Both the position numbers and the translations under genes were made by a program. The notes under the pieces are model-generated. The model was not told the origin of the DNA. It was given only the letters and a program-made list of their open reading frames with translations, and ran no database searches. From Roseimicrobium sp. ORNL1 (GTDB lineage: Bacteria; Verrucomicrobiota; Verrucomicrobiia; Verrucomicrobiales; Verrucomicrobiaceae), in NCBI RefSeq assembly GCF_011044495.1, contig NZ_CP049143.1:5022001-5086000 (forward strand): a stretch of DNA of 64,000 bases. Reading direction: 5' to 3'. Each line of letters opens with the position of its first letter. Positions within the stretch are counted from its first letter, which is position 1. Positions 3,198 to 19,690 of this stretch are shown piece by piece.

Positions 3198-3995
3198 TTA
3201 CCCACCCACCTGCCTTCTCACCGTCGTCCCGGGATTCATCAAATCATCCCGCTCGAGTCCGGTGATGCGCTGCAGGTGCTTCAGCAGGCGGAAGAACACC
3301 ACCAGCATGATCACCATCATGGGCACGCCGATGACGATCATGCTCATCCAATTCAGCTTGGCGATGCCTTTCATGAATTCCTCGGTCGCAGGTGCCTTGC
3401 CTTCCAGGAGGTACATCGCGAGGAAAAAATTCGCCACCGAGCTCAGCAGCATGCCCAGGCCCAACTCGCACGAAGCTCGGAACAGCACATGCTTATACTC
3501 CGCCTGACGCTGCGGCGAATTGAGCGCGGCTTTCATTGCCTCCAGATTCATCACATGCGGCTGCATGATCAGCGCATTGATGAGCGGCTTCCCAAAGCGA
3601 TGACTCAACGGAAACGCCAGGCCAATGACGATGGGCATGGCACTCTCCTTCACCGCAAACCAGAAAGCAGGCAGCTTCAGCAGCCCCAGGCCGCCGGTGA
3701 TCAGAATGGTCACAAAGCCGAGCACGGAGAAGAGATTCCACCCCTTCTTCTGGATGAAGCACCAGATGCCGAAGCCAATCGGGAACAGCAGGCTCACCAC
3801 CAGCGCCCACAGGGGACCGAGCCGCTCAGTCGTGCTCAGCTTGTCCAGCACCACTGAAGGCAGGATGATCGTGAGGACAATCTCCAGAAGAGGATTCGGC
3901 GGCTTGTGCGCGGCAGCGGAAACAGAGGCGGGGGCTTGGGTCACCGGGCAACCAACCGCATGCCACGGCGCTGGCAAGCGGAAGACGCGCCACAT
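3198..3995 (-). CDS. VC0807-type integral membrane protein
   Basis: A protein of up to 265 residues with about five to six hydrophobic segments, beginning at LLEIVLTIILPSVVLDKL. The arrangement (LWALVVSLLFPIGFGIW, VTILITGGLGLLKL, AMPIVIGLAFPLSHRFGKPL, a helical cytosolic stretch, then two C-terminal membrane helices) resembles the VC0807 family of unknown function, often called MFS-like. The start is uncertain. The ATG at 3995 gives a Cys/Pro-containing leader, and an in-frame GTG (V-T-Q-A-P) about 17 codons in could be the real start. The upstream neighbour is divergent. Confidence 0.65.
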   Translation of the reverse strand: MWRVFRLPAPWHAVGCPVTQAPASVSAAAHKPPNPLLEIVLTIILPSVVLDKLSTTERLGPLWALVVSLLFPIGFGIWCFIQKKGWNLFSVLGFVTILITGGLGLLKLPAFWFAVKESAMPIVIGLAFPLSHRFGKPLINALIMQPHVMNLEAMKAALNSPQRQAEYKHVLFRASCELGLGMLLSSVANFFLAMYLLEGKAPATEEFMKGIAKLNWMSMIVIGVPMMVIMLVVFFRLLKHLQRITGLERDDLMNPGTTVRRQVGG

Positions 3996-4042
3996 ACCAG
4001 CATTTGCCTAAGCTTCGCCCGGGTGCATCGTTGTATTTTCCG

Positions 4043-4612
4043 ATGCTCCCCCGCCTCCCCCTTGCCACCCTCCTAGTGACCCTGACCCTCGCGCCCTGCC
4101 TGGGCCTGGGAGCAAAGGATTTCGACAAGGACGTGAAGCCCATCCTGAAGGAGCACTGCTACGAGTGCCACAGCGAGACAGCCAAGAAGGAGAAGGCTGG
4201 CTTCGTCTTCGACAACAAGACCCGCCTGAAGAAGGACATCGGGGTCAATATGCTCATCGAGCCCGGCGATCCCGCCTCCAGTCATTTCTTGGAAATCATC
4301 GCGAACCCAGACGCGAAGAACCACATGCCCCCCAAGGGGAATCTCAGTACCAAGGAGATAGCCACCCTCCGCGAGTGGATCTCCCTCGGCGCCCCCCTGG
4401 ACAAGGACTCACCCAAAGTTGCCGCGAAGAAAGAGCTGCCGCCCATCATGACCTGGACCAATGCCGAGGGCCGGAAGATCCGTGCGGGGTTCGGTGGCAT
4501 CGAAGGAGAGAACGTCATCCTCAAGATGCCCAACGGCCAGCGCGTCAGCTACCCCATCGCCAACCTCTCCGCCGAGAGCCAGGCTCAGGCGAAAGACGCG
4601 GCAGCGCCTTAA
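4043..4612 (+). CDS. Secreted protein with planctomycete-type cytochrome c domain
   Basis: A 189-residue exported protein. The ATG at 4043 starts a signal peptide (MLPRLPLATLLVTLTLAPCL) ending before LGAKDFDKDVKPIL. The single haem-binding CxxCH motif (EHCYECHSE) at the beginning of the domain, the DNKTRLKKDIGVNMLIEPGD stretch and the closing HMPPKGNLSTKEIATLREWI are typical of the C-type cytochrome domain common in Planctomycetes and Verrucomicrobia. A C-terminal region of about 50 residues (MTWTNAEGRKIRAGFGGIEG onward) looks like a small SH3-like/SLA1-type domain. It is a small periplasmic protein of unknown partner, without the large DUF1549/DUF1553 modules usually fused to this domain. 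Confidence 0.75.
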   Translation: MLPRLPLATLLVTLTLAPCLGLGAKDFDKDVKPILKEHCYECHSETAKKEKAGFVFDNKTRLKKDIGVNMLIEPGDPASSHFLEIIANPDAKNHMPPKGNLSTKEIATLREWISLGAPLDKDSPKVAAKKELPPIMTWTNAEGRKIRAGFGGIEGENVILKMPNGQRVSYPIANLSAESQAQAKDAAAP

Positions 4613-4621
4613 GAAAGTAGC

Positions 4622-4774
4622 TACGGCTTCAGCCGTACTCAGGGGACGCGCCACTTCGACCAAGGTCGAAACCGCCTTGTCATCCCCTGAGGCGAGCGGC
4701 CTTTCCAGGCCGCATGGTGAATCTCACTCGAGACTCCCAAGAAGAATGACGCGCAGCGGCCAGGAAAGGCCGCT
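4622..4774. repeat. Cluster of short palindromes in a 275-bp intergenic gap
   Basis: Three hairpins are visible: TACGGCT-TC-AGCCGTA at 4622-4637, CTCAGGGGA/TCCCCTGAG at 4638-4646 and 4683-4691, and the palindrome GCGGCCTTTCCAGGCCGC at 4696-4713. The last recurs in inverted orientation at 4755-4774 (AGCGGCCAGGAAAGGCCGCT), differing at two positions. This is REP-like intergenic DNA with no coding potential. Confidence 0.6.
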
Positions 4775-18074: not shown

Positions 18075-18326
18075 TTACACCTCCGTCGTAGTCGGGATGC
18101 GTTTCTGCTCCGGCTGCTTCGTGGGGGTATTGACAACATCGTCCTGGGCACTGGTGAGTTCATGTTCGAACTCCTCACGCGCCTTTTTGAATTCACCCAT
18201 GCTCTTACCGAGGCTACGGGCGAAGGTGGGAAGCTTTTTGGCTCCGAAGAGCACGAGCACAAGCACGGCGATGATGATCATCTCCGTGGTGCCAAGCGGC
18301 CCAATTGCGAGGATGGGGTGGTTCAT
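18075..18326 (-). CDS. tatA: Twin-arginine translocase subunit TatA/TatE
   Basis: An 83-residue membrane protein that forms the pore-like component exporting folded proteins. The short periplasmic start is MNHPILAIGPLGTTEMIIIA, then a single membrane helix (MIIIAVLVLVLFG), the FGAKKLP hinge, and an amphipathic helix (FARSLGKSMGEFKKAREEFE) with a charged tail. An in-frame ATG at 18338 would add MLTS. It is followed downstream by the secreted nuclease-family gene and preceded by a TatA-like microgene on the same strand. No tatC is seen in the window. Confidence 0.9.
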   Translation of the reverse strand: MNHPILAIGPLGTTEMIIIAVLVLVLFGAKKLPTFARSLGKSMGEFKKAREEFEHELTSAQDDVVNTPTKQPEQKRIPTTTEV

Positions 18327-18496
18327 GGAAGTAAGCATACTCCCCTAACGTGGGGCTGCAATGGGAACTTTCACAGCGACAGGACCACTTTTCTCTCTGC
18401 GTCCGGCTCTCATAGCCAACCGTACTAGCGCCCCTATCATCACCCAAATGGGGGAGCAAATCGCACGCTCTACAGGCCCGAGAGCACGCCACCCAC

Positions 18497-18673
18497 TCAC
18501 AGGCCATGGCGGTCTTCAAAATCGTCACGTGCCTTTTTGAAATCTGCAATGTTCTTCGAGAGGCTGCGAACGAAAGCGCGGTAATTCCCCGCACCCAGCA
18601 CTAAAATCACGACGGCGAGAATCATCATCCCACCAGTGCCAAAAGGGTCAAACGCCAGAATGCCGAGGTGCAT
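18497..18673 (-). CDS. TatA-like microprotein (58 residues)
   Basis: A short open frame running 18673 to 18497 gives 58 residues: a leader MHLGILAFDPFGTGG, one membrane helix (MMILAVVILVLGAG), then FVRSLSKNIADFKKARDDFE. The last part aligns with FARSLGKSMGEFKKAREEFE of the adjacent tatA product. The normal FGAKKLP hinge is replaced by LGAGNYRAF, and the polar Glu before the membrane helix (TTEM in tatA) is Gly. This suggests a tandem duplicate that has diverged, or an accessory Tat component. There are no frameshifts. Similarity to the neighbour over about 45 residues makes coding likely. Confidence 0.7.
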   Translation of the reverse strand: MHLGILAFDPFGTGGMMILAVVILVLGAGNYRAFVRSLSKNIADFKKARDDFEDRHGL

Positions 18674-18715
18674 GCGGTCCTCTCCAAATAAAACTACACG
18701 TCGCCTGGGAACCTT

Positions 18716-19690
18716 TCAAAGAGCGAGTACCACCTTCCCGGCACGTCCATCTTGGGCAGCCAGCTTCACGGCCTCCGCGAAATTCTCGATGGGTAGGATC
18801 TGCTCCACCGGCAGGGTGAGATTGCCCTCCATCATCATCTCCGCCAGGGGTCGGAGCACGTTCCCAATCTCGATGTGGGACGCCTGCTCGATCCACCGGG
18901 TGAGCCAGTATCCTCGGATTTCCAAATTCTTGAAAATGAGGAACTTGTTTGGAATCTTCAGGCTGCGCCGGCTCATGGCTCCGTAGGTCACATGGGCGCC
19001 GCCGGGAGCCAGCAGATCCATCAGGCGCAGGGCGCTGTCTCCGCCCACGGCATTCAGGGCAAGATGCAGGGGCTGCCCTCCCAGCGCGCTCCGGGCCGCC
19101 GCTTCGTCTGAACCGCCATCGATCAGCACGGAGTCCGCGCCCAGTGCCGTGAGTTCCCCAATGACCGCTTCCCGGCGCACAAAGTTCACCGTGCGCAGGC
19201 CCAAGTGTTTCGCGATTTGAATCACGGCGCGGCCCACACCTGAATTCGCTGCATTTTGCGCGACCACCTCTCCCTTCCCCAGCTCACGAAACTCATGAAG
19301 CATCTGCCAGGCGGTCGTGGGGTTCACACGGAGCATGCTGGCCTGCACGGGATCCAGCTCCGAGGGCAGCTTCGCGAACTGATTTTCCGCCGCCAAAAGA
19401 TACCGCGACCAGGTGCCGATGGGGTGCAGCGGGATCACCAGGTCCCCCACCTCCAGCGAGTCCACCTCGTCCCCCACCGCCTCGATGCGGCCACACCCTT
19501 CGTTGCCGGGATGCGCGGGGAAGCTTGCCTTCTTGCCGTACGTCCCCTCGATGAAATTCAGGTCCGCCGGATTGATGGGCGCATACAGCATGCGCACCAG
19601 CACCTCATGCCGCTGCGGCACCGGCGGATCATACGGCTCCAGTTTGAGCACTTCAGAAGGCAGGCCAGCTTGGTGGAAAGTGAGACGCAT
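18716..19690 (-). CDS. Zinc-independent MDR oxidoreductase (quinone / 2-enoyl reductase type)
   Basis: A 324-residue NADPH-dependent medium-chain dehydrogenase/reductase. The start at 19690 (MRLTFHQAGLPSEVLKLEPY) fits the family; the upstream extension is low-complexity and overlaps a repeat. The catalytic domain shows MLYAPINPADLNFIEGTYGK (Tyr and Asn typical of MECR/ETR-like enoyl reductases) and FPAHPGNEGCGRIEAVGDEV. The cofactor-binding region is VVAQNAANSGVGRAVIQIAK, with the group's AANSGVG loop. No structural zinc cysteines are seen. It probably reduces trans-2-enoyl thioesters or quinones. Confidence 0.85.
   Translation of the reverse strand: MRLTFHQAGLPSEVLKLEPYDPPVPQRHEVLVRMLYAPINPADLNFIEGTYGKKASFPAHPGNEGCGRIEAVGDEVDSLEVGDLVIPLHPIGTWSRYLLAAENQFAKLPSELDPVQASMLRVNPTTAWQMLHEFRELGKGEVVAQNAANSGVGRAVIQIAKHLGLRTVNFVRREAVIGELTALGADSVLIDGGSDEAAARSALGGQPLHLALNAVGGDSALRLMDLLAPGGAHVTYGAMSRRSLKIPNKFLIFKNLEIRGYWLTRWIEQASHIEIGNVLRPLAEMMMEGNLTLPVEQILPIENFAEAVKLAAQDGRAGKVVLAL

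Follow-up and report, generated by a model that had tools for sequence, protein, structure and literature searches.

Mutation of Phe39, an essential residue in the amphipathic helix of Escherichia coli TatA, has a dominant negative effect (PMC13186574). The transmembrane stretch of TatA is limited by a polar residue or by a helix-breaking PG, and in Bacillus subtilis TatAd the PG can substitute for the polar residue (PMC13186574); E. coli TatA with an N-terminal Asp can replace TatB (PMC5777986). Short relatives of TatA have been described. TatE of the Enterobacterales is a short tatA paralogue with both helices (PMC5777986), and TatA2 of Campylobacter jejuni (Cj0786), which is confined to a few related species, is not fully functional without TatA1, which the authors suggest that it needs (PMC4148689). 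Among 10 papers listed for Verrucomicrobia with tatA and twin-arginine, PMC3827258 included, no title refers to tandem tatA in Verrucomicrobia.

The window, a stretch of 64,000 nucleotides, contains a 58-codon TatA-like frame on the minus strand (18497–18673; ATG at 18673 and stop at 18497), comprising an N-tail, one transmembrane helix and an amphipathic helix, with the normal TatA C-tail absent. It lies beside tatA, as the preliminary description had it without naming a strand. An apparent Shine–Dalgarno motif, GGAGAGG, read from the sequence, is located 5 nt upstream of the ATG (within 18674–18690, minus strand). The gene order, all on the minus strand, is a zinc-binding dehydrogenase/quinone-oxidoreductase type gene assigned by Pfam and labelled qor here (18716–19690), the 58-residue frame, and the 87-residue tatA (18075–18338), which is the only full-length TatA/B/E-family gene of the genome; an endonuclease/exonuclease/phosphatase-type gene (Pfam) comes after tatA. 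A candidate gene on the strand opposite the frame was rejected on account of an internal stop in the frame read. A promoter and terminator scan returned nothing beyond consensus matches, on which no conclusion here rests, and the RNA structure of the spacer is ordinary (z = −0.56).

Searched against its own genome, the 58-residue query matches the neighbouring tatA over both helices (E = 3.6e-10, 53% identity); the resemblance to TatA is therefore not due to chance, and a chance open frame is ruled out. The peptides FVRSLSKNIADFKKARDDFE and FARSLGKSMGEFKKAREEFE, the first of which had been said to track the second in the neighbour, are both found in the translated sequences. The frame scores below the cut-offs of the TatA/TatE family models (18.7 bits versus 21 for PF02416; 24.6 bits versus 53.9 for NCBIfam TIGR01411), and the neighbouring tatA reaches 64.8 and 68.2 bits with the same models. 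An ordinary orthologous tatB was set aside as an identity for the frame, which scores 12.5 bits versus a cut-off of 56.5 with the TatB model TIGR01410. In the genome (7.96 Mb, one contig), tatA is the one PF02416 match above the cut-off; the frame falls below it, and two further matches are short, weak stretches within long frames. The genome has one TatC gene, away from the frame and tatA. This gene comprises 530 codons (L063 4274–5866; C1 of the own genome, G000, about 1164273–1165865), with approximately 90 residues inserted between two halves of the TatC profile and a long acidic low-complexity C-tail after them.

The predicted structure of the frame shows the TatA/TatE arrangement of a short transmembrane helix followed by an amphipathic helix (helix 13–27, a break, and helix 31–56; mean pLDDT of 76). 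The AlphaFold alignment comprises 12 rows (the frame, its own tatA and 10 rows from relatives) that are mostly TatA, so the model is pulled towards TatA. The hydrophobic moment is 0.439 for the frame and 0.413 for tatA (shuffle P of about 0.06 and 0.05). Comparison with solved E. coli TatA chains, weak on its own (E of 0.077 to 1.3), places F45 of the frame on the essential Phe39, the Phe of the FKKA motif, and L26-G27 on the hinge F-G. The hinge FGAKKLP of TatA reads LGAGNYR in the frame, which has neither the FG hinge nor the K-K-L-P motif. The preliminary description had called this hinge lost; the alignment with the E. coli chains narrows that to F replaced, G kept and KKLP replaced, with the Ala also kept and one residue deleted. 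Its observation that the pre-helix Glu is gone holds: the residue is changed to Gly (E15G), GG occupies the site, and no polar residue precedes the transmembrane helix. The TatE charge pattern of E2/E3 and K8 is missing, with Gly at the residue-8 position, and a gained acid, D9 (G9D), lies near the N-terminal acid position of TatE and TatB when the alignment is extended without gaps.

By codon position, the frame differs from its own tatA at 14, 12 and 31 sites (54 codons), and the own tatA differs from that of the congener G001 at 3, 0 and 14 sites (55 codons). A custom-written branch codon model (46 codons, 21 rows and four placements of the frame) gives an omega of 0.08–0.16 on the frame's branch versus 0.018 for TatA, estimates that are rough because this branch is near saturation. 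A single omega ratio is worse at all four placements (2ΔlnL of 16.2–17.8). Fixing omega at 1 on the frame is worse by 18.4 when it is sister to its own tatA, by 7.2 when sister to g2, by 4.4 when sister to the genus, and by 2.8 on the genus stem, where neutrality is weakly rejected. All 12 changes in the helices, four transmembrane and eight amphipathic, score 0 or above in BLOSUM62, and the eight negative-scoring changes all lie in the N-tail (five) and the hinge (three). Among 4000 neutral simulations, with the extant tatA used as ancestor, helix conservation this strong arose in 0.55%, 0.1% and 0% at 0.2, 0.3 and 0.4 substitutions per site, respectively. Aligned with tatA, the frame shows a single in-frame deletion and no frameshift. 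Under simulated neutral drift the probability that a frame stays free of stops is 0.25–0.57, for which reason the open frame alone is little proof of function and was discarded as such. Constraint on the frame is relaxed relative to TatA but probably not absent, and we conclude from these substitution patterns that during much of its past the frame encoded a protein under constraint, less strongly than TatA.

The spacer between the frame and tatA holds what is left of another qor 3′ end (18371–18406, minus strand), a frameshifted stretch 36 nt in length that ends in TGA. It was recognized because the region upstream of the own tatA (approximately 18339–18405) is 94% identical to the qor end and tatA leader of G001. 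At the G001 locus, the only other one of the genus compared (two genomes including the own), qor is followed directly by tatA, about 32 bp apart, and a counterpart of the frame is absent. The last approximately 120 nt of the own qor are anomalously diverged from the congener, with an identity of 0.71 versus 0.87 over the preceding 480 nt; in 39-nt windows the identity is mostly 0.77–0.97, and 0.64–0.74 in the last three. The remnant and the diverged qor end mark a duplication or recombination junction. An old qor–tatA tandem duplication with the extra copy deleted in G001 would fit this arrangement, as would the import of a relative's qor end and tatA copy beside the native one. A leader element before tatA, GAAAGTTCCCATTGCAGC (18355–18372, minus strand), is identical in G001 and G012 and is possibly a promoter or operator. 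The element also occurs upstream of tatA in G021 with two mismatches; a match in G008 and a second match in the own genome (two mismatches each) sit elsewhere, and G006 and G010 have none with up to two mismatches.

An order-wide search of 386 genomes, in which the best 16 or fewer candidates per genome were scored, returned a match at E ≤ 0.05 in 348. In the own family, 65 genomes have a match and at least three have none (counted from a table that lists all but 18 of the unmatched genomes), and 12 of the 65 have more than one among their best 16 or fewer candidates. Eight of these 12 were located, seven being partial unlinked second matches and the eighth, G011, a separate pair off the contig of its tatA; the other four are the own genome, G007, G022 and G001, whose only other match in the frame-query search is weak and lies inside a 728-residue frame. 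Extra TatA-like copies are present in at least four of the 65 family genomes (G000, G007, G022 and G011), and they adjoin tatA in the own genome, in G007 (two copies, one hinge-altered) and in G022 (hinge intact). The G007 locus (L070 about 3800–4665, minus strand) carries a run of three tatA-like genes, of which the first (61 residues) is hinge-altered and the second is short and reads FCAKKLP. In G011 (L096 and L074, C6), away from the main tatA, a TatA variant that reads FGAKNLP and has an extra hydrophobic stretch at its C terminus stands beside a decayed TatA-like frame. Weak remnants of the same kind were sought at the retrieved loci, where many low-scoring chance matches and nothing convincing beyond G007 and G011 were seen.

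The pairing of a longer tatA with a short TatA-like gene immediately upstream is recurrent in other families of the order, and the short copy mostly has an intact hinge (loci L082, L083, L085, L087 and L088, of families f3 and f4). A contig scan with the frame as query gave 24 loci, each containing a TatA-family frame with an intact FGAKKLP; none exceeded 49% identity to the query, in a set from which the own and near-identical genomes were possibly excluded. The protein tree groups the frame with the 61-residue copy of G007 (support of 80/81), a grouping that joins two long branches, and alternatives with clades that include the own tatA are not rejected (p-AU of 0.22–0.41).

With moderate confidence, we interpret the frame as a lineage-specific tandem tatA paralogue encoding a non-autonomous TatA-like subunit under weak or fading selection. 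The copy would have arisen by duplication of a qor–tatA segment, or by recombination that placed the copy of a relative next to the native gene, and would then have been shortened at its 3′ end. The frame would still be translated, and its product would insert as a short-helix membrane protein. Because this product retains an amphipathic helix bearing the essential Phe-Lys motif but has no normal hinge, it would at most be a non-autonomous subunit that co-assembles with the true TatA (and TatC). We infer that such a product could join TatA assemblies and would be unlikely to work alone. This interpretation takes in what was observed of the frame itself, namely the homology, the junction, the relaxed constraint, the conservative helix changes and the absence in the congener. 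The predicted pair of helices with a break between them and the recurrence of short upstream copies in other families of the order also count for it; against it count the lack of an ortholog to demonstrate present-day selection, the weak rejection of neutrality on the genus stem, the choice of the extant tatA as simulated ancestor, the neutral survival of open frames and the TatA-dominated AlphaFold alignment. The frame could instead be a young pseudogene, a decaying duplicate that became neutral after an early constrained phase and owes its open frame to chance and its small length, which we consider less likely. Absence of the copy from the only congener compared, relaxed constraint, scores under the curated family cut-offs and the appreciable neutral survival of a stop-free frame all agree with decay, as do the plainly decayed qor remnant that adjoins the frame and the obviously decayed extra copy in G011. 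Decay accords less well with the exclusively conservative helix changes, a single in-frame deletion with no frameshifts, the retained apparent Shine–Dalgarno motif, and the disfavouring of omega = 1 at three of the four placements (2ΔlnL of 4.4–18.4). A decaying duplicate was among the options of the preliminary description, and the part that stands is that of a diverging duplicate, by virtue of the junction with the qor remnant, the relaxed constraint and the absence in the congener; the uniformly conservative changes in the two helices leave pure decay poorly supported.

It appears improbable that the frame is a dedicated Tat component. In that case it would be a TatE/TatB-like subunit or a modulatory one, in a genome that has no recognizable TatB; the gained D9 would act at the TatC receptor and the amphipathic helix would tune TatA rings. 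Such a role would suit a genome in which just two genes of the TatA/B/E family rise above background alongside a single TatC, as well as the position of D9 near the TatE/TatB acid, given that an N-terminal Asp lets E. coli TatA replace TatB (PMC5777986). It would also suit the alignment of F45 with the essential Phe39 (PMC13186574) and the second hinge-altered short copy in G007, with which the frame is grouped. The frame is, however, not conserved in the genus, it has Gly at residue 8 of TatE/TatB, and the G007 grouping joins long branches and has unrejected alternatives. The suggestion in the preliminary description of a dedicated accessory or dominant modulator of TatA is accordingly possible but gained no positive evidence. 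The check that it had proposed, of conservation and dN/dS in close relatives, yielded the relaxed omega together with absence from one congener (n = 1), and the loss in close relatives that it had named as telling against the microprotein was encountered there (n = 1, G001). More doubtful still is the broader proposal that a mini-TatA with an altered hinge and no pre-helix Glu has taken on a new role in a TatA–TatC system that lacks TatB, either as a TatB/TatE-like subunit or as one that modulates rings, and that in one or more further genera of the family, G007 being the case in point, similar hinge-altered copies have arisen or persisted beside tatA.

As a tandem paralogue, the frame is a further example of the already known spare, shortened TatA copies, and degenerate paralogues of this kind amount to naturally occurring mutants at positions that are thought essential in TatA. 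If translated, it would show that selection can maintain the amphipathic helix without maintaining the FGAKKLP hinge and the pre-helix acid, which would help to tell the assembly of rings apart from movement of the hinge; if a relic only, it would be an ordinary tandem duplication captured partway through decay, and a warning for the annotation of small ORFs.

Among the relatives, other Verrucomicrobiales families (G054, G056, G068, G071, G109 and others) have, like this locus, a short copy immediately upstream of a longer tatA, but in most of these copies FGAKK(L/I)P and the pre-helix Glu are retained. The 61-residue copy of G007, within the own family, shares with the frame an altered hinge, a missing C-tail and a position upstream of tatA, although its hinge sequence is different and the gene upstream of it is, by eye, a sulfatase-like end. 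The TatE of the Enterobacterales resembles the frame in its shortness and its two helices and differs in its E3/K8 charge pattern (PMC5777986), the frame having Gly at residue 8 and family scores under the cut-offs. C. jejuni TatA2 offers the nearest precedent: it is short (57 residues), C-terminally truncated, and exists beside a full TatA1 (PMC4148689). C. jejuni TatA2 lacks Gln8 and Phe39, both held to be essential, and the frame keeps the Phe39 counterpart; the hinge FG is kept in C. jejuni TatA2, its glycine is also absent in the TatA2 of C. lari and C. upsaliensis, and in the frame F is changed to L and KKLP is lost. The C. jejuni gene is part of the nap operon rather than in tandem with tatA1, whereas the frame stands in tandem with tatA.
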